Virus record (IMG/VR): IMGVR_UViG_3300033981_001727
Coordinates: 1 to 20,228 of that record
DNA: 20,228 nucleotides
From: a virus
Reading direction: 5' to 3' (one strand)
The translations under genes were made by a program, and so were the position numbers. Below are positions 3,084 to 13,815 of this stretch, one piece after another (position 1 is the stretch's first letter; every line of letters starts with the position of its first letter). The notes beneath the pieces were generated by a model, which had not been told where the DNA came from, did not search any database, and saw only the letters and a list, made by a program, of their open reading frames with translations.

Positions 3084-4635
3084 GACGAATGCCGGTGAAG
3101 CCGAACTCGGTGCGGAGCACCTCGAACGCTTCGGCAGGACCGATGCGGCGTCCAGTCAACTCAGTGGCCGCCTGAGTTGCGAGGCGGTCGGTTACGGAGT
3201 AGGTGCTGCCCCGCGTGCCGACAACACGGGTGGCGTAGAAAGCGCTGCTGATCAGTTCGCTATGCCCCTCGCCAGCGATGCGGGCGCCGAGGCCCAGTTG
3301 ATTGGAGAGGTAGCGTCCACGAACGGTATCGGCAGTTTTGATCAGCTCACTAAGCCCAGCAGCTCGCTGCTCTTTGGTGATGGTGGGAGCACCAGCACTG
3401 TTGGAGAAAATACTTCCAAGCTCCTTGTAATAGGAGTCAAAGCCTTTGACGGTGGCGCTGTAGAGCCGATCAGTGGTGCCCTTGGGCGTACTTTTCATGA
3501 CGGCGCTCAGGTGTTTCTGCACGTCCTCGGTCATTTGAGTGCCATAGCCACCTGCCCGAGCCAGGCGCGTTGTGAAATCAGTGATTTCGTCATCGGTCAG
3601 GGCCTTTTTACCAATCCCGAAGCCCTGTTGTTTGGCCAGAGCGGTCAGGCTCTGCTTCTCCTCGGTGAAGTAATTCGTTAGCGCCCTTTTGATCGAGGAC
3701 GTGTCCTTGGCATCGGCAGTCGAAAAACTGAACTGACGCTGGAGAAAGCTCTGAGCTGAGGCTTCAGCGAAGACGTTTTCCTTGTTCCGGCCGACATTGG
3801 CATTCCAGAAAGCAGCGCGATGTCGTGCTGCCCACTCAGCGTGGTTATTGGAAGGGCTGTTGTTGACGGTGTTGAGCGCGCTCGAAAGGGCGCTGTGGGC
3901 ATTGCGGTGCGTTGAGGTCAGGGGTGTATCCGCCAGCCCTGCGGGGTTGAGATCTCGAAGCCGCTCGACCTGAGAAGTCGGTCCCCAGTTGGTGGAACGC
4001 GCAATCTGGAAGGCGTTTTGATCGCGGAAACCCGAGGCCGCAGCTTGAACTGCTTGGCGGCGAGGACCGAGGATGGGAACGGCGCCCAAAACGCGCTCGA
4101 CGCCATCGTCAATGGCGGTTTTGACGTTTCGGCCAAACGTGGTGCGCAGGAACGTGGGGTTGTTGATGCCTTTTCGGAAGGCGTAGCCAAGGCTTGCGAC
4201 ACCGAGCACAGCGCCAATCGCAGCACCATGCTTTTCCAGGTTTTGGCGCAACTGTTTTTTCTGCTCCAGATTGTTGCCGGGCACGAGCTTTACGACACCG
4301 CGCTCGATGGCGCCACGGCCTCGCTGAACTCGGGCTGGATTGCCCTGCAACACACCACGACGAACTTCGGTCAGGCCGCGTTGGACAGAGGCGGCACCCT
4401 TCAGAGGGTCAAAGCTGTGAACACGGAGTTCTGAATTGGTGCCCTGCCCTTTGAGACGGCAATCCCAGTTCGGAGGGATGCAGCGCCCACCACATTTGAC
4501 ATTGGGAGGCAAGCACTGAACATTGCGGCGATTGGTTTTGCCAGTGCCAGTCGCTGCAAACCCTCGCAGGTCGTTGCGCTGCTGCGCTGCCAGGTAAGCC
4601 GCGGTGCGGATGGTGGATTGCTCTTGGCTGTCCAT
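3040..4635 (-). CDS. large putative virion protein with duplicated C-x-P-P-N-x-x-C module, 531 aa
   Basis: Not recognised as a named family. A TTG lies slightly upstream, but the ATG at 4633-4635 forms TGATG with the portal stop, so I take it as the start. Near the N-terminus (residues 41-59) two near-identical octets, CLPPNVKC and CIPPNWDC, are separated by three residues, giving four Cys likely to bind metal or form disulfides. A Gly/Ala-rich hydrophobic stretch (about 137-152) follows, then about 370 residues of mixed, largely helical sequence and a very basic C-terminal tail. Codon use is less GC-biased than in the portal gene. Its place between portal and the gp7-like protein suggests a head-vertex or ejected protein; this is inference. 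Confidence 0.6.
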   Translation of the reverse strand: MDSQEQSTIRTAAYLAAQQRNDLRGFAATGTGKTNRRNVQCLPPNVKCGGRCIPPNWDCRLKGQGTNSELRVHSFDPLKGAASVQRGLTEVRRGVLQGNPARVQRGRGAIERGVVKLVPGNNLEQKKQLRQNLEKHGAAIGAVLGVASLGYAFRKGINNPTFLRTTFGRNVKTAIDDGVERVLGAVPILGPRRQAVQAAASGFRDQNAFQIARSTNWGPTSQVERLRDLNPAGLADTPLTSTHRNAHSALSSALNTVNNSPSNNHAEWAARHRAAFWNANVGRNKENVFAEASAQSFLQRQFSFSTADAKDTSSIKRALTNYFTEEKQSLTALAKQQGFGIGKKALTDDEITDFTTRLARAGGYGTQMTEDVQKHLSAVMKSTPKGTTDRLYSATVKGFDSYYKELGSIFSNSAGAPTITKEQRAAGLSELIKTADTVRGRYLSNQLGLGARIAGEGHSELISSAFYATRVVGTRGSTYSVTDRLATQAATELTGRRIGPAEAFEVLRTEFGFTGIRRARGSSAGRNRGRR

Positions 4636-6467
4636 CAGTACGCCTCCCAACCGGCACGAAGTGCTTCGAGTTCGCCCTCGGGGACAGGGGAGAGCCCTGC
4701 CACAGTCTGCCGAGGGAAGAAAGTCGCCACGGCGCTGCGGGCGGCGCGCATTGAGGCGAAGCCGGTGGCGTAGGGCCCGTCGACGAGGGCGCCGTCGCAG
4801 GCGAAGCGGGCTCGGTAGAGCTTGTAGGCCCGGGTGCGATTGGGCCCGAAGATCATCAGCGGGGCCGAGCTGCTGGCATCGGTGCGCTGGCCATCGGGAC
4901 CGACGAGGTAACCAGCGCGGATGTCACCGCTGCGGTGCGTTACGTGGATACGTAGGCCCTGGGCTTCGTAGCGGTCGAAGGCGTCGGTCTTGGCGGTTGG
5001 GCTGGGTTGCGGGGCGTCGTCCTCGGGTTCTTCGGGGTCTTCCTGTTCAGCAGCGGGCTGCTCGGGCGGGACGAGAGCGGCCTGAGCCTGCGCCTCGTAG
5101 CCCATCATCTGGCTCTGGAACTGGGCGTCCGTGGTCGCGATCAGCTGCTCGGTGACCGCCGGGTTGAGCGTCGTCTCCAGGGTGTATTCGGTACCGCCGA
5201 AACGGGCTTCGCGCACTTCCAGCGGGTTCAGCACACCGAGGTTGATGTACTGGGCGTCGACCTGGGCCATTTGCAGGCGCAGGGCGGCGTCCTCGGCTTC
5301 GGTCTGCGTGAAGACGTTGGGGAAGTGGACCGTCCAGGAACGCGGGGCACGGCCTCGGGTGGGACCTTCCTTGGAGAGGAAGATGTACTGGAAGACTTCG
5401 GTGATCGGGGTGCGGCAGTAGACCTCCTGCCACTGCTCGACCAGGGAGGCCCAGACCCGCTCCTCGAAGCGACCCTCTTTGCCGAGGCCACCGGGGGAGT
5501 CGCCCATCAGGATCGAGGCCGGCCAGCCAGTGGCGGCTTGGAGGTCCTTGATGAAGGGATCCGTGGCGGAGGCGATGTTGCTCAGGGCGCGGTTGAGGAA
5601 CTGCAGGTCCTCTTCCACGTCGACGACCATGCCGCCGTAGACGGAGCGGCTGAGGCTGTTGGCTTCGAGGCGTTTGCGCAGATCGCCCTCGTTGCCGGAA
5701 GCGATGCGCTGGAACAGACCGGGGATCTTGTGGACGAACAGGTCGGCGTCCGTCGTCATCGACTCCAGGCCGGCCATTGCCGACTCGTAGCGCTTGTACG
5801 CCTCCCAGATCAGCTGGAGGACGGATTGGCCCCAGCCGGTGTTGCGGACGCGGACGTTCCAGGGCAGGTACAGGCCGTCGAAGCGGGCGATCCGGCTGCT
5901 GTGGATGCGGACGTTGACGTAGGAGCCCTGCTGGTCGGGGGTCAGGCGCTGGCTGGTGGTGATCCGGTAGTGCGAGGGCTTCGAGTAATCGGTGATCGAG
6001 AAGTCCTCGGGGATCAGCTCGTGACGGGATAGGGGCACGTAGCCACGGATGGCGCGGATGCGCTCAGGCTCGACAGGCTCGGCTGGGTCAAGGCCGTCGT
6101 CGATCAGCAGGACCAGGCCGGCGCCACCGTAGAGACGCTGGAGCTTGACGACCTCGGCCAGGGCGTGGTGAAACTGCGTCGCCTTCAGGAACTCTTCGAA
6201 CCCGGCGATCAGATCGTTGGCGTTGGCCTCGTCATCGGTGCCGAGGGTGATCGTGGGGTGGTGCCGGAGGATCTCGTCGCCGATGGCGTCGACGTAGCGG
6301 CGAGGGATTCCGTGGCTGTAGAGAGCTTCAAGTTCTGCTTCTCCAAGGAAAGCCTTTGCGCCTATAGCCGTAGAAACTGTCTTGTCTCTCGAAGGAACTC
6401 CCATTCCAGTGAGAATGTTTACGAGTGCCCCGTCGTTCCGGAACTCTTCAGTAGCTGCGTTGGCCAC
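4635..6467 (-). CDS. phage portal protein, DUF1073 family, with C-terminal extension
   Basis: Portal: the dodecameric ring through which TerL pumps DNA into the head. The first roughly 440 residues match what I know of the DUF1073 portal family (PF06381): a D-E-x-L-R-x-H-P segment near the start, Y-G-G-A-G-L-V-L-L at about 114-122, the W-G-Q-S-V-L core, and the long T-G-W-P-A-S-I-L-M-G-D-S-P-G-G block followed by the E-R-V-W stem region. A Pro/Glu/Asp-rich linker (about 465-490) leads to an extra C-terminal domain of about 115 residues that I do not recognise. The start is a GTG at 6465-6467 without a good ribosome site. The first 50 or so codons are noticeably richer in A/T than the rest. 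Stop overlaps the next ATG (TGATG). Confidence 0.88.
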   Translation of the reverse strand: MANAATEEFRNDGALVNILTGMGVPSRDKTVSTAIGAKAFLGEAELEALYSHGIPRRYVDAIGDEILRHHPTITLGTDDEANANDLIAGFEEFLKATQFHHALAEVVKLQRLYGGAGLVLLIDDGLDPAEPVEPERIRAIRGYVPLSRHELIPEDFSITDYSKPSHYRITTSQRLTPDQQGSYVNVRIHSSRIARFDGLYLPWNVRVRNTGWGQSVLQLIWEAYKRYESAMAGLESMTTDADLFVHKIPGLFQRIASGNEGDLRKRLEANSLSRSVYGGMVVDVEEDLQFLNRALSNIASATDPFIKDLQAATGWPASILMGDSPGGLGKEGRFEERVWASLVEQWQEVYCRTPITEVFQYIFLSKEGPTRGRAPRSWTVHFPNVFTQTEAEDAALRLQMAQVDAQYINLGVLNPLEVREARFGGTEYTLETTLNPAVTEQLIATTDAQFQSQMMGYEAQAQAALVPPEQPAAEQEDPEEPEDDAPQPSPTAKTDAFDRYEAQGLRIHVTHRSGDIRAGYLVGPDGQRTDASSSAPLMIFGPNRTRAYKLYRARFACDGALVDGPYATGFASMRAARSAVATFFPRQTVAGLSPVPEGELEALRAGWEAY

Positions 6468-6701
6468 GACGGTGAAAGCGTGGGAGTTCAGTTCAAATTT
6501 TATGGAGGGAAATCTAAACCTTTTCGAATTGGCGAAGATTCAGCTTTTTGGAGCAAGAATTTAGATTGGCAAGGCGACAATTTGATGTTTTGGCCCAACA
6601 ATTTAGAATTTCTGCCGATAATTCAGCTTTTAGGCGCAAAGTCTGCGGGGTAAGGGTCCGCGCTCGGGGGTTCGTAGCCTGGGATAGCAGCCTTGCGCGG
6701 C
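6468..6701. other. AT-rich intergenic region between portal start and HNH gene
   Basis: About 230 bases between the start of the leftward portal gene and the start of the rightward HNH gene. It is much richer in A/T than its surroundings and carries the 21-bp repeat array described separately. Frames remain partly open through it because the repeat length is a multiple of three, but neither strand gives a convincing protein. Promoters for both flanking genes probably lie here; I could not fix their positions. Confidence 0.5.
6537..6640. repeat. iteron-like array, about five 21-bp direct repeats
   Basis: The core AATTYAG-like heptamer starts at 6537 (GATTCAG), 6558 (AATTTAG), 6579 (AATTTGA), 6600 (AATTTAG) and 6620 (AATTCAG), a spacing of 21, 21, 21 and 20. 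Between cores lies a degenerate TTTTGGCNCAA block. Two helical turns per unit places all copies on one face of the DNA. The position beside the packaging genes and an HNH nuclease allows a terminase recognition/cos-pac site, a replication origin or an activator site; the sequence alone does not decide. Confidence 0.6.
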
Positions 6702-7028
6702 ATGTTGGACCATCACATCGATGGATCCCTCCTTTGCTCAAAGCGCACGGCCAAGCTGAGATTTCGACAGGGGATCCTGGATTCCTGGGGTGGGGCGTGC
6801 GCGTATTGCGGCGCTCCGGCTGGGACGTTGGATCATGTCCGTGCTCGGAGGCGCGGGGGCGCTTCGGTGCAGCGGAATCTCGTCGCGGCATGCGCCTGCT
6901 GTAACCGGGCCAAGGGCTCGGAGGAGTGGACTTGCTGGTTCCGCAGTCAGGTGTTTTGGGACAGCACGCGGGAACAGCGGATCTGGTGGTGGACGCAGGG
7001 GCCGATGGAGTTACCCGTCAGCGCTTAG
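6702..7028 (+). CDS. HNH endonuclease
   Basis: Small HNH nuclease and the only confident plus-strand gene. Zinc-binding Cys pairs sit at 33/36 (C-A-Y-C-G) and 64/67 (C-A-C-C-N); between them are the catalytic D-H (44-45) and the N of N-L-V at about 59, followed by N-R-A-K-G-S. The C-terminus is rich in Trp. Start ATG at 6702-6704; an in-frame TTG at 6693 would add three residues. At 108 aa it is typical of free-standing phage HNH proteins, which in cos-type phages are often next to terminase and assist cleavage of packaged DNA. It could instead be a selfish homing-type nuclease, since it interrupts an otherwise one-directional block. Confidence 0.85.
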   Translation: MLDHHIDGSLLCSKRTAKLRFRQGILDSWGGACAYCGAPAGTLDHVRARRRGGASVQRNLVAACACCNRAKGSEEWTCWFRSQVFWDSTREQRIWWWTQGPMELPVSA

Positions 7029-7105: not shown

Positions 7106-8587
7106 TCAGATGTGTGCGAAGAAGCCGGCGGTGTTGGGTACCTCTGGGATAAGGTGGCAGGCGAAAGCTAGGGCCATCACCGTGTCGTCGTGGGCGCCGG
7201 AGGCGGCTTCGCGGTTGCCGGATTCCTTTTGCTGGAAGGCGCGGAGCTCGTCGCTAATTACGCCCTCGGGGAAGATCAGCTCGTCGTGCTCCATCAGGAA
7301 CAGGATCCGATCCGTCGCCACGATCTTGCTGGGGCGACTGGTGTTAAAAGTTTCGATAGCGTAGTTGGGCAGGATGTTGGACAGCGCCTCTGCGATTACG
7401 GCGCCCATTGCCTGCTTCTCCACGATTACCCGCTCCGGAAGGTAATCCTCGATGAGGCTTTTGACGTGCTTCAAGCTGTACTCGGTGCTGCGACCGTTCT
7501 CGCGGTACATGCCCACGACCTCGTAGGGCTTTTCGGTGATGTCCAGGACGACCGCTGTGAAGTAGTCGTTGCCGCCGGCGTTGGGGTCCACGCCAATCAC
7601 GTAGGTGCGACCGATGGAGCCACACTCGCGCCAGTGGCCTCGGGCGGCGCGGCGCACCAGATCCGAGGGGAACACCTGGGTGTCGGTGGCGCCGAACGCC
7701 AGCTCGTACTCGGAGTCCCATGCGGCCTGGGTCATCCGGCGCGACTCGCGGGTGTTGCGCGCCCAGTTCGGGTCGTGGCCGTAGAGCGGATGCTGGCTGT
7801 AGTGGATCGCGACGCGGTTCCAGGAGTCCTTGACCTGGGCGAGGCGGGCGTTGAGCTCCTCGATGCGCCGGCGCCGGACGTACTCGTACCAGTCAGCTGG
7901 CGTGCCCTGGTGCCAGAGCTGGCCGAACCAGTCGAGCTCGGTGTCGGGCGTCGAGGTGACGATCACCTTGGCGTTCTCGCCCACCATGGACAAGGTGGGC
8001 ATGGCGCCCCGGTAGATCTCGGCGGCACCGTCGAGGAAGGCGCCTTCGTCCATGAACAGGACGGAGCAGCTGGGGATCCCCCGCGCTGCGCGCGGTGAAG
8101 CAGGTAGGAAGTACAGGGTGCCCCGGCCTTCGATGGCGATCTGGGTGTTGCTGTCTGTCAGGTAGCGGATGGATTCGCCCTCGATGCTGTTGGCCATAGC
8201 GCGGACGCGGCGGCCGAGCTCGGAGGCGTCCTGCTGGGTCTTGGAGAAGACCACGGCAGCGAAGCCGCGCTCGGTGAGGGCACGGCAGAGCAGATAGGAG
8301 CACACCGTCTCGGAGGCGCCCATCTGGCGGGACTTGTTGATGATCGTGTTCGGGTGCTCGTTGATTGAGCGCACGAGCTCGACTTGGTAGGGGTAGGGGT
8401 CGAAGGGGGCGACGGTGCCACCGGTGCGGATCCAGGTGCGTCGTGCGAACGACGGCCAGTCCTCGACGCCGGGGAGCTTGGTGACGCGCACGCCCGGGTC
8501 GAAGTTGGCGGAGCGGGCTTTGCGCTTGGCCAGTTCGAGCCGGAGCTTGTCGGCGCGGCGTTGGAGCTGGGCGAGGGAGGCGGTCAC
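7106..8587 (-). CDS. terL: terminase large subunit
   Basis: ATP-driven DNA-packaging motor with headful/cos nuclease. Visible motifs: adenine-binding region P-Y-Q at 65-68, a deviant Walker A K-S-R-Q-M-G-A-S at 85-92, Walker B V-L-F-M-D-E at 176-181, coupling motif T-S-T-P-D at 211-215, and the RNase H-fold nuclease triad at D334 (I-G-V-D-P), E390 (V-I-V-E-K) and D467/D468 (G-A-H-D-D-T). At 493 aa it is full length. The GTG start at 8585-8587 overlaps the TerS stop as GTGA, a normal translational coupling. All essential residues are present, so the protein should be active. Confidence 0.95.
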   Translation of the reverse strand: MTASLAQLQRRADKLRLELAKRKARSANFDPGVRVTKLPGVEDWPSFARRTWIRTGGTVAPFDPYPYQVELVRSINEHPNTIINKSRQMGASETVCSYLLCRALTERGFAAVVFSKTQQDASELGRRVRAMANSIEGESIRYLTDSNTQIAIEGRGTLYFLPASPRAARGIPSCSVLFMDEGAFLDGAAEIYRGAMPTLSMVGENAKVIVTSTPDTELDWFGQLWHQGTPADWYEYVRRRRIEELNARLAQVKDSWNRVAIHYSQHPLYGHDPNWARNTRESRRMTQAAWDSEYELAFGATDTQVFPSDLVRRAARGHWRECGSIGRTYVIGVDPNAGGNDYFTAVVLDITEKPYEVVGMYRENGRSTEYSLKHVKSLIEDYLPERVIVEKQAMGAVIAEALSNILPNYAIETFNTSRPSKIVATDRILFLMEHDELIFPEGVISDELRAFQQKESGNREAASGAHDDTVMALAFACHLIPEVPNTAGFFAHI

Positions 8588-9057
8588 TCGTCCTCGGGAT
8601 CAGCGGATTTCAGGAGATCCAGGTCCTCGCCGTCGGGCTCGGGGACGGGCTCGGCAGGGATCTGGAGCAGGCCGTAGATCTGGTGCTCCAGGTCGGACAC
8701 CGTGCGCTCGAGGAGCTTGCGCTCTTGGTAGGCGGCGGCGCCGTTGAGCAGGGCGCGGGAGGCGGCGATGCGGTCGCTGGCGCGGGCGTTTTCGTCGTTC
8801 ATGATCGACGTCAAGGTCGCGATGGCCTCGGGCATCAGGGCGACGTTGCGCGACTGGGAGCTGTCGATCAGCTCCTGCTGCATGTTGTAGATGGCGCGCT
8901 GGACGGCGGGCCGCTTGCGCCAGTTGTAGAGGGTCTTTTCGGCGATGCCGAGGGCGCGGGCGACCTCGCGGCAGGTCTTGCCGCGTGCCAGGAGGTCGGC
9001 AGCGAGGCGCTCGTTCTCGCGGAGGCCGTCGACGATGTTGGGATTGCGCGCAACCAT
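8584..9057 (-). CDS. terS: terminase small subunit
   Basis: DNA-recognition subunit of the packaging terminase, 157 aa. An N-terminal helix-turn-helix spans about residues 20-52 (L-L-A-R-G-K-T through L-Y-N-W-R-K-R-P), followed by the helical oligomerisation segment (A-I-A-T-L-T-S-I-M-N-D-E-N-A-R-A-S-D-R-I-A) and an acidic tail ending P-E-D-E. It is directly upstream of and coupled to TerL. The ATG at 9055-9057 is clear; the open frame before it is a shadow. It begins a transcription unit: 81 bases separate it from the previous stop and hold two of the recurrent regulatory motifs. Confidence 0.85.
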   Translation of the reverse strand: MVARNPNIVDGLRENERLAADLLARGKTCREVARALGIAEKTLYNWRKRPAVQRAIYNMQQELIDSSQSRNVALMPEAIATLTSIMNDENARASDRIAASRALLNGAAAYQERKLLERTVSDLEHQIYGLLQIPAEPVPEPDGEDLDLLKSADPEDE

Positions 9058-9138: not shown

Positions 9139-9378
9139 CTAGGGGTCGGGGCGCTGGAGCTTGGTGGCGTAGTCCAGGGCGGCGGCGAACTCGTACAGGG
9201 AGCGGTGGTCGTAGCGGTCGAGGTTGGACGCGATGGCGCGCCGCGCTTCATCGGCGATGTGGGCGAGGACAGCGCTGACGCCGGCGTGCTCGGGGGAGGG
9301 GTGCGCGTCGGCAGCGTGGGTGGCACGGGTGTAGGTGGCGACCAGCGCGTTGAGGTCGTAGCGCGGCTCAATCGTCAT
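9139..9378 (-). CDS. hypothetical protein, 79 aa
   Basis: I do not recognise it. The product is helical, with an Arg/Ala-rich middle (A-D-E-A-R-R-A-I-A-S-N-L-D) and Y-E-F-A-A-A-L-D-Y near the end. The longer open frame upstream lies within the zinc-ribbon gene in another register and is rejected. The ATG at 9376-9378 overlaps the zinc-ribbon gene by 11 bases. It is last in a five-gene coupled run (9139-10007) and is followed by the terS promoter region. Confidence 0.6.
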   Translation of the reverse strand: MTIEPRYDLNALVATYTRATHAADAHPSPEHAGVSAVLAHIADEARRAIASNLDRYDHRSLYEFAAALDYATKLQRPDP

Positions 9379-9631
9379 GGGGTTGCGCGACCAACTGGGT
9401 GAAGTGATTGCGGAAATTTGCCCATTTGATCTGGACCGTGCGGTAGCGCCAGCTGACCGTGCCGCGGGGGGCGACGATCTCGGCGTGCTGCACTGTTTGG
9501 AAGTGGTGTCCGCAACTGGGGCAGTCGCGGCGGCGCCAGAAGTGGCCCTCGGCGCTGCGGTTTGTGCGAGTGATGTCACTGACCAGGCAACCGCACTCGG
9601 GGCAGGGCGGGCCCATCCGATTGACGGCCAT
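9368..9631 (-). CDS. small zinc-ribbon protein (NrdR-like ribbon only)
   Basis: 87 aa with two Cys pairs, C-P-E-C-G at 10-13 and C-P-S-C-G at 37-40, separated by an Arg-rich linker (F-W-R-R-R) and followed by H-F-Q-T. This spacing and the R-R-R-x-C-x2-C-G-x2-F-x-T signature resemble the N-terminal zinc ribbon of NrdR and of small phage transcription factors such as Ogr, but no ATP-cone follows. It probably binds nucleic acid or a host protein. Its ATG overlaps the stop of the 39-aa membrane protein (TAATG). It might be a late-gene activator, as Ogr/Delta proteins are; that is speculation. Confidence 0.72.
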   Translation of the reverse strand: MAVNRMGPPCPECGCLVSDITRTNRSAEGHFWRRRDCPSCGHHFQTVQHAEIVAPRGTVSWRYRTVQIKWANFRNHFTQLVAQPHDD

Positions 9632-11877: not shown

Positions 11878-12081
11878 TCAGTTCAGGTGCGCGGCAATGC
11901 GTGATCGCAGATGTTCGGTGCGTTGGCGAAAAGTGGAATAGTCCACGGTTTCGCACAGCCACTGTCGAGTGGCTTCGTCCTCGCTGTCGAGAACGATGTC
12001 GAGCGCGTCAAAGAGAAGGCAAAGATCTTCGTCCCCTAAATACAGGTTGAAAGTCTGCGATGGGCGTTGAGCGGACAACAT
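11878..12081 (-). CDS. acidic hypothetical protein, 67 aa, partner of the Csx16-like gene
   Basis: Not recognised. Strongly acidic middle (G-D-E-D-L-C-L-L-F-D-A-L-D-I-V-L-D-S-E-D-E) followed by a mixed helix and a basic end. It begins 11 bases after the Csx16-like stop, so the two are probably co-transcribed. A small acidic helical protein next to an anti-defence candidate is the profile of many inhibitors and nucleic-acid mimics, but this is position and composition only. ATG at 12079-12081. Confidence 0.6.
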   Translation of the reverse strand: MLSAQRPSQTFNLYLGDEDLCLLFDALDIVLDSEDEATRQWLCETVDYSTFRQRTEHLRSRIAAHLN

Positions 12082-12092
12082 TGAAGGACTAA

Positions 12093-12386
12093 TCAGACAG
12101 GGCGGACTCGGTAGGTGACGAGCTCGGCGCCCGCAGCGTCCATCTCCTGGATGGTGATGTCGCCGCGGAGGAAGCGCTCGCGGGAGGGGCGATCTAAGCC
12201 GGGGATGTTGACCTCAGTGATGCAATCGGCGAAGGCTGCAAGCCAATAGGGAACCGTTCCGTAGACGTGCTTGTGGGCGACGTCCAACGGGACTACGTGC
12301 TCGAGGACGGGGGCGTGAATGCCTTTGTCATTGAGCCAGTCGATGACAGCAGGGTTCTTCGAGATGATTACGGCGTTTGAGGTCAT
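12093..12386 (-). CDS. csx16: Csx16-like protein (VVA1548 family), putative ring nuclease / anti-type III CRISPR
   Basis: 97 aa, matching in length and order of motifs what I remember of the Csx16 family (PF09652/TIGR02620): a first beta strand A-V-I-I-S followed by N-P-A-V-I-D-W-L (family: R-H-P-G-A-x-x-W-L) at 5-18; G-T-V-P-Y-W-L-A-A (family: G-T-L-P-x-x-L-A) at 43-51; and R-G-D-I-T-I-Q-E-M-D-A-A-G-A-E-L-V-T-Y-R-V (family: R-G-x-x-L-x-x-E-M-D-x-x-G-A-x-L-x-x-Y-x-V) at 74-94. Csx16 proteins accompany type III CRISPR loci and have been reported to degrade cyclic oligoadenylate signals. No cas gene or array is here, so in this phage-like setting it may disarm host type III immunity. The Arg-His of the family's first motif is Lys-Asn here. 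ATG at 12384-12386. Confidence 0.65.
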   Translation of the reverse strand: MTSNAVIISKNPAVIDWLNDKGIHAPVLEHVVPLDVAHKHVYGTVPYWLAAFADCITEVNIPGLDRPSRERFLRGDITIQEMDAAGAELVTYRVRPV

Positions 12387-12637: not shown

Positions 12638-13714
12638 TCACACCAGAGCGAGGCAGGCTTCGCGGGCACGGGCGATTCGGCGAGAGGCGTCGCCACCCCA
12701 GAGGGATTCGAGGCGGGCGCGGGCGCGCTCGGTTTCGTCCTTGGCGCGGCCGGCGTCGTGGGTCTCGAACTGGGTGATGGCGTTGAACAGGCCGTAGGCC
12801 GTGCCGGTGATGCCAGGGATAGAGCTGATGCCCAGGCCCGTGTCACCGGTGTAGTGGCTGCGGATCATGCCGATCTCGGGGAGGTCGTTGAGGGTGCGAT
12901 CTCGCTTGTCGCCGGTGACCTTGTCCTTGATGGGGATGGCGAGCTTGTCGGCGTAGGTGGCTTCGAGAACGCGGCGGGCGACCTCGGCTGTGAGCTTGGT
13001 GTGGGCCAGGTCGCGGAGTTCGTCGATGGAGCGCCGGAAGGATTGGCGTTCGAGGTCGATGAGGTGGGGAAGGCGCTCAGCGAAGGCGGTGACAGAGGTG
13101 GTGTGCTTCATGCGCAGGCCGTGGCCTTCGTTGGAAGCGCGCGTCGCTGCTTTGCCGGTGAGGTAACTGAGCTGGTTGGCGCAGGCCAGGCGGACGTCGG
13201 AGAAGAAGACGCCGAAGGAGCTGGAGCCGTCGAAGGAGTTGAAGGCGTGGAGGTAGCGGCGGACGCGGTCACCGGGGACGACTTCGTCCTCGACGTGGAT
13301 TGAGGCGGTGGCGAAGACTTTGCGGCCGTCCCGGATTGAGAGGACGTTCTCGATCTCGATGTCCTCGCGCAGGTAGTCGAGGAGGTTGATCAGCGAGGAG
13401 TTCTGGACCGGGGTGTAGCCCGAGCCGTGGATGCCCAGGAGCTGGTTGGTGTCGCTGCGGACGATGGAGCAGTGCTCGGGGGATTGCATCGGGCCGTCGG
13501 GGCCCATGAAGAAGGCGGGGCGCTTGTCGGCTGACCAGTCCAGGCCGGCGATGGCGAAGGCTTCGGAGGCCGAGGCGTTCTCGGTGATCATCGTGCCGAC
13601 GCGGCCGATCAGCGGGTTGACGGCGTAGCCGCGGTCTCGGTAGCGGCCGTAGACCATGGGGCCCTTGCCGTCGGCGGCGTAGGCGGTGGTGACGCGGTTT
13701 GCGGTGAAAGTCAT
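12638..13714 (-). CDS. DUF932 domain phage/plasmid-like protein
   Basis: 358 aa, length and sequence style of the DUF932 family (PF06067; phage/plasmid-like protein TIGR03299), which is common on cyanobacterial plasmids and phages and has no agreed biochemical role. Recognisable segments: Y-T-P-V-Q-N-S-S-L at about 118-126, the A-S-I-H-V conserved strand, a D-V-R-L-A-C-A-N-Q-L core near the middle and a helical C-terminus (G-L-F-N-A-I-T-Q-F-E-T-H). I take the ATG at 13712-13714 and not a GTG 66 bases upstream, because a promoter-like site at 13816-13844 and the composition fit an untranslated leader. An AUG-CAA-UGA micro-frame overlaps the start. It forms its own unit between two RNA-hairpin regions. 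Confidence 0.85.
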   Translation of the reverse strand: MTFTANRVTTAYAADGKGPMVYGRYRDRGYAVNPLIGRVGTMITENASASEAFAIAGLDWSADKRPAFFMGPDGPMQSPEHCSIVRSDTNQLLGIHGSGYTPVQNSSLINLLDYLREDIEIENVLSIRDGRKVFATASIHVEDEVVPGDRVRRYLHAFNSFDGSSSFGVFFSDVRLACANQLSYLTGKAATRASNEGHGLRMKHTTSVTAFAERLPHLIDLERQSFRRSIDELRDLAHTKLTAEVARRVLEATYADKLAIPIKDKVTGDKRDRTLNDLPEIGMIRSHYTGDTGLGISSIPGITGTAYGLFNAITQFETHDAGRAKDETERARARLESLWGGDASRRIARAREACLALV

Positions 13715-13815
13715 TGCATGGGGTGAGAGATCAGCGGCGAGCGCTGGGTGGATGAGGGCGCGTTGATGACCGAGGCGCACCCCTCGGGAGGACGGGCGTG
13801 CGGCCCACCTAGGAG

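Follow-up and report, generated by a model that had tools for sequence, protein, structure and literature searches.

What might a protein related to the ring nuclease Csx16 do in a phage, when residues that mark the family have been replaced? The question is raised by a gene in a 20,228-nucleotide stretch of viral DNA (IMG/VR record IMGVR_UViG_3300033981_001727, positions 1 to 20,228; the window), for which a reading of the sequence alone had proposed a viral ring nuclease directed against type III CRISPR. Bacteria employ Csx16 to turn off an alarm molecule of CRISPR. One Csx16 is known to be a cA4-specific ring nuclease, which degrades cA4 in vitro (PMC12409355).

Identification of a divergent PF09652 protein

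The Csx16-like gene is an open reading frame at 12093..12386 on the minus strand, exactly as first delineated: it starts with ATG and encodes 97 aa, with N11 at the canonical histidine position. The three motifs reported for the protein, NPAVIDWL, GTVPYWLAA and RGDITIQEMDAAGAELVTYRV, were found verbatim.

The protein had been assigned to the Csx16/VVA1548 family. Profile search gave a significant match: PF09652 (Pfam) scored 28.4 bits (E 2e-6), passing the gathering cut-off of 25, and covered residues 7-94, nearly the whole profile. The PADLOC Csx16 models matched at E values from 6e-8 to 4e-5. TIGR02620, the NCBI Csx16 model, yielded 19.3 bits and missed its curated cut-off of 46.35 by 27 bits. 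As PF09652 matched and TIGR02620 failed, the protein was filed under the PF09652 superfamily and not as a Csx16 ring nuclease.

A Pfam scan up to E 10 returned PF09652 alone and no match to AcrIII-1/Crn2 (DUF1874). The PHROGs search found no family for the protein, the PDB sequence search produced chance hits only, and a promoter scan upstream of the gene returned nothing.

Genomic context of the gene

The portal protein encoded in the window (4635..6467, minus strand; phrog_146, E 2e-85) shares 40.5% identity with its counterpart in Synechococcus phage S-CBS4. The terminase large subunit, TerL (7106..8587, minus strand; phrog_2, E 1.4e-43), has cyanophages as its nearest named relatives. An identical Csx16-like gene was present in G405, a 70.8-kb record of the same phage, whose major capsid protein matches the S-CBS4 one with 56% identity across the full length and which also encodes portal, protease, exonuclease and endolysin homologues. 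Judged by these proteins, the window belongs to an S-CBS4-like cyanosiphovirus.

TerL and the terminase small subunit, TerS (8584..9057, minus strand; phrog_2538, E 3.9e-10), are located 3.0-5.0 kb from the gene and on the same strand, which agrees with the packaging genes noticed at 3-5 kb in the sequence-only reading. The same reading had found no CRISPR array with the gene; a search in which the positive control worked detected none, either in the window or in the larger 70.8-kb record. The gene is not located beside type III CRISPR-Cas genes.

Its slot is bounded upstream by a DUF932 protein (12638..13780, minus strand; PF06067, E 1.7e-27; phrog_1221), which is 75-99% conserved in relatives, and downstream by a 172-aa conserved phage protein (11298..11816, minus strand), also conserved in relatives. 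Directly downstream from the gene lies a 67-aa ORF (11878..12081, minus strand), found in the closest relatives only and with no family match.

Elsewhere in the window, a NrdR-type zinc-ribbon protein (9368-9631, minus strand), conserved in relatives, reached 26.1 bits where the cut-off is 27.2, and an HNH endonuclease (6693-7028) is encoded on the plus strand amid the minus-strand portal and terminase genes.

A cyanophage family maintained in an exchangeable slot

Phage homologues, a survey of which had been suggested with the original reading, were found in S-CBS4-like cyanosiphoviruses of ~70 kb and in one divergent phage. Scans of IMG/VR gave 24 loci of the family, and TerL-anchored retrieval added more (e.g. 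L098, L057); identity to the window protein ranged from 100% down to 48%. PF09652 was matched individually by all 14 aligned members (E<=0.1). The family profile aligned with cellular and viral Csx16, type III-associated sequences included, with a probability of 97.7 and an E value of 1.4e-12 (hhalign), and the reverse search with the phage profile recovered canonical viral Csx16 (e.g. L047, i-Evalue 6.6e-11). When the phage proteins were placed in a tree together with 18 further sequences of PF09652 type, they were monophyletic with a support of 100/98.

Of the pairs in which dS was usable, nearly all had a dN/dS of ~0.06-0.42, and one saturated pair was lower. The family is under purifying selection and actively maintained. 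The Csx16-like proteins diverge more between relatives (~52-67% identity) than the corresponding TerL proteins (87-96%).

In these phages the slot lies downstream of the DUF932 gene and before the gene for a conserved 138-172-aa protein. The Csx16-like gene occupied it in 14 of 22 TerL-selected contigs with a readable slot, a set that was not dereplicated and in which the DUF932 gene was in some cases cut by the contig end. In the other eight (L073, L074, L081, L091, L106, L116, L120 and L124) the gene was absent from the slot, and longer records of this kind (e.g. 66.4 kb and 66.2 kb) lacked it over the whole record too. An unrelated ORF of 82-109 aa filled the slot in three contigs (L073:6184-6435, L074:4570-4899 and L081:3140-3388), and it is possible that this ORF is an alternative counter-defence gene.

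A homologue 52% identical to the window protein was found in L029, a contig without a DUF932 match and with a TerL of only 44% identity. This occurrence, together with presence and absence in the slot, indicates that the gene behaves like mobile accessory cargo, and the slot distribution fits what is expected of accessory counter-defence cargo. An apparent DUF932-Csx16 fusion in L021 was rejected, being the result of a one-base deletion relative to L023.

Replacement of signature residues

A reference set of 18 sequences was used for comparison; it comprised type III-associated Csx16 as well as Csx16 from plasmids, archaeal viruses and other viruses. In the first motif, arginine was present in 16 of these and histidine in 17. 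The change from R-H to K-N noticed in the window protein was confirmed, and it extends to the family: asparagine stands at the histidine position in 14/14 members, and the residue before it varies (K, R, T and others). To judge from its conservation, the R-H pair probably takes part in the chemistry of Csx16.

The E-x-R-G-x-[ED]-L loop of canonical Csx16 is not present in the family; in its place stands an R-x-R-F-N-[RA]-G helix, longer by four residues, with one arginine aligned. In the column of the R-G dipeptide, R69 is thus kept and the glycine lost. H38, W48, E58, R66, R71 and F72 are invariant in the family and absent from canonical Csx16. Retained in common with canonical Csx16 are G-x-[LV]-P, the aligned R69, E81-M82 and G86-A87; the core ligand-loop motif G43-x-x-P46 and N11 are invariant in the family. 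With its signature residues replaced, the protein may consequently block the CRISPR alarm in a different way.

Predicted structure

Comparison of a predicted structure with Csx16 was another check that had been suggested. AlphaFold2 models were produced in parallel for the window protein and for a canonical viral Csx16 (mean pLDDT 90 and 95, respectively). Both were predicted to form a parallel sheet with flanking helices, in which the order of strands and helices was identical, so that the window protein displayed the Csx16-like order of elements. Residues 66-73 form a helix in its model, where the canonical protein has a three-residue turn followed by the R-G-x-D/E-L loop.

A Foldseek search of the window-protein model against the PDB and viral models returned nothing at E<=0.001. 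The control search with the canonical Csx16 model against the PDB likewise gave no significant match, and for this reason the absent fold matches are not evidence against the Csx16 assignment. The cA4-bound CARF deaminase Cad1 was among the best sub-threshold matches of both models, which is a hint only.

Hosts and type III CRISPR

The host of S-CBS4 is Synechococcus sp. CB0101, which points to Cyanobiaceae as the expected hosts; this assignment, based on phage relatedness, is likely. A Cas10/Cmr2 match was obtained in 9 of 400 Cyanobiaceae genomes, one of them above the curated cut-off. Cas10 being this scarce, the selective pressure for an antagonist is not obvious. Type III-B loci are present in a few genomes of the family. 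In two of the loci, L223 and L226, arrays and Cmr genes accompany a Cas10 with the GGDD motif, and L226 additionally encodes a TIGR02710 CARF effector. The literature describes CRISPR as rare among picocyanobacteria, with types I-E, I-G and III-B present in strains from freshwater (PMC11316352).

The 140 spacers of the Cas10-bearing Cyanobiaceae loci gave no match to these phages better than reversed controls. Csx16 was not detected with PF09652, a model that does match the window, in 386 cyanobacterial genomes. There is thus no sign in these genomes of a Csx16-regulated system, and the result argues against recent capture of the gene from such hosts. A scan of genome contigs with the protein as query found no cellular relative, and the A4 profile had no match in the 400 Cyanobiaceae genomes, a set without a positive control.

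The Cyanobiaceae loci L223-L232 have a compact Cas10, with open frames of 530-690 aa, and CRISPR repeats such as GTTTCCAATCAATAGGTGTCACCAGCGAGTGGTGAC. Most score below the Cmr2 cut-off and appear to be a divergent III-B group.

Proposed function and alternatives

The proposal of a viral ring nuclease held as far as Csx16 homology and residence in a phage are concerned. Its enzymatic part gained no support beyond homology, given the missed TIGR02620 cut-off, the lost R-H pair and the remodelled loop. The first two of these make even the binding of cyclic oligoadenylate a property that we infer.

The simplest account is that viruses turn Csx16 on type III CRISPR and that the cyanophage branch changed the way in which this is done. 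The protein is a diverged, virus-adapted branch of the PF09652 superfamily, and we consider it, with moderate confidence, most likely to be a phage-encoded antagonist of a cyclic-oligoadenylate signal acting by non-canonical chemistry. It would dimerise like other Csx16/CARF-type proteins; the dimer would bind cyclic oligoadenylate, most likely cA4, produced by a host type III-B Cas10, and would withhold it from CARF effectors during infection. A putative role in inhibiting type III immunity is indirectly supported by the accessory phage slot and by the III-B loci of the likely host family. Since histidine was exchanged for asparagine and the loop rebuilt as an arginine-rich helix (R66, R69, R71 and F72 invariant), we expect the action to be mainly tight binding, sponge-like as in Csx15, or else slow cleavage at a site that has been rewired, and not the canonical chemistry of Csx16; we regard a sponge and a rewired nuclease as roughly equally probable. 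More tentatively, cyanophages may have captured a ring nuclease family and converted it into a viral anti-signalling protein, either a sponge without catalysis or an enzyme whose active site or nucleotide target is new, the fold of Csx16 being kept and its chemistry not.

The main rival to such an antagonist is a repurposed fold, directed at another nucleotide signal, such as those of CBASS and Thoeris or that of a decoy system, or at a non-signal target, with type III CRISPR irrelevant. The new invariant residues H38, W48, E58, R66, R71 and F72 would be accounted for by such a change of target, as would the rarity of Cas10 in sampled Cyanobiaceae and the failure to detect Csx16 in sampled cyanobacteria. 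We consider it less likely, however, because neither G43-x-x-P46 nor N11, which stands at the motif-1 position, varies in the family, the accessory-slot distribution fits counter-defence, and positive evidence pointed to no other target.

It is less probable still that the protein is an ordinary, fully active Csx16 that cleaves cA4 like the host enzyme, the R-H change being immaterial. The PF09652 match, the same predicted secondary structure, the occurrence of canonical R-H Csx16 on other viral contigs (see below) and the retention of G-x-[LV]-P, R69, E81-M82 and G86-A87 are in agreement with full activity, but the nearly universal arginine of the references is now variable, their histidine is asparagine in every member, the glycine of the R-G column is gone and the NCBI cut-off was missed by a wide margin. 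Finally, a decaying, non-functional relic of an acquired Csx16, to which loss of the signature R-H pair might point, is hardly credible and was rejected, since it is contradicted by the purifying selection described above, by the many invariant columns and by ORFs intact in many contigs.

Viral ring nucleases besides AcrIII-1 are thinly documented, and type III systems of picocyanobacteria have scarcely been studied. A conserved clade of cyanophage proteins in which the motif is swapped would carry cyclic-oligoadenylate counter-defence to picocyanobacterial phages and would offer a natural test of the catalytic residues of Csx16. Should the protein bind but not cut, it would be the second Csx16-like fold acting as a sponge after Csx15, here in a virus.

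Relation to other Csx16 proteins and cA4 antagonists

With canonical Csx16 the cyanophage protein shares a PF09652 score above gathering, the length, the order of secondary structure elements, the G-x-[LV]-P loop and the C-terminal E-M-[DE]-x-A-G-A. It differs in having K/R/T-N for R-H, a longer helix (66-73) where canonical Csx16 has the R-G-x-E/D-L loop, and the new, invariant H38, W48 and E58, in failing TIGR02620 and in lacking adjacent cas genes. Three Csx16 of proteobacteria, encoded in plasmid regions with CRISPR annotation, share 25-28% identity with the window protein.

Csx16 in phages is as such already known, having been reported in two phage genomes (Hoikkala et al. 2025, PMC12409355), and a published survey counts it in two of 28,114 phages; new are the cyanophage clade and its altered motif. 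Named viruses with an annotated Csx16 in the collection searched are the methanogen viruses Drs3 and PhiF3, and canonical R-H Csx16 was found in the IMG/VR contigs L045, L046, L047, L048, L272, L274, L275, L278, L279 and L280. Four of the contigs checked carry phage genes for packaging, recombination or replication: TerL in L045, RecT in L048, a replication initiator in L274 and a helicase in L278. Viral Csx16 therefore looks more widespread than the two reported phages. Like the window protein, these are orphan homologues in a virus or viral contig, and that of L272 is 42% identical to it; in contrast, they keep R-H and mostly R-G, and the cyanophage clade is separate from them in the tree.

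With AcrIII-1/Crn2 (DUF1874) the cyanophage protein would share the proposed role only, that of a small viral protein removing cA4; the two are without a sequence match, and the literature treats AcrIII-1/Crn2 as a distinct family. Csx15, a related small protein of another family that is reported absent from phage genomes, binds cA4 well and cleaves it slowly, and is a precedent for sponge-like action (PMC13148439). The same study holds that sponging may be futile, given how much cyclic oligoadenylate type III systems make (PMC13148439).

Csx16-like domains also occur on plasmids. On the Paenibacillus polymyxa megaplasmid pSC2 (L016:7728-8276), a protein of 182 aa ends in an orphan Csx16 domain, preceded by an N-terminal part that looks unrelated. 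On the Allomeiothermus silvanus plasmid pMESIL02 (L017:7638-8423), two Csx16-like domains stand in tandem within a single protein of 261 aa, whose annotated neighbours include no cas gene.
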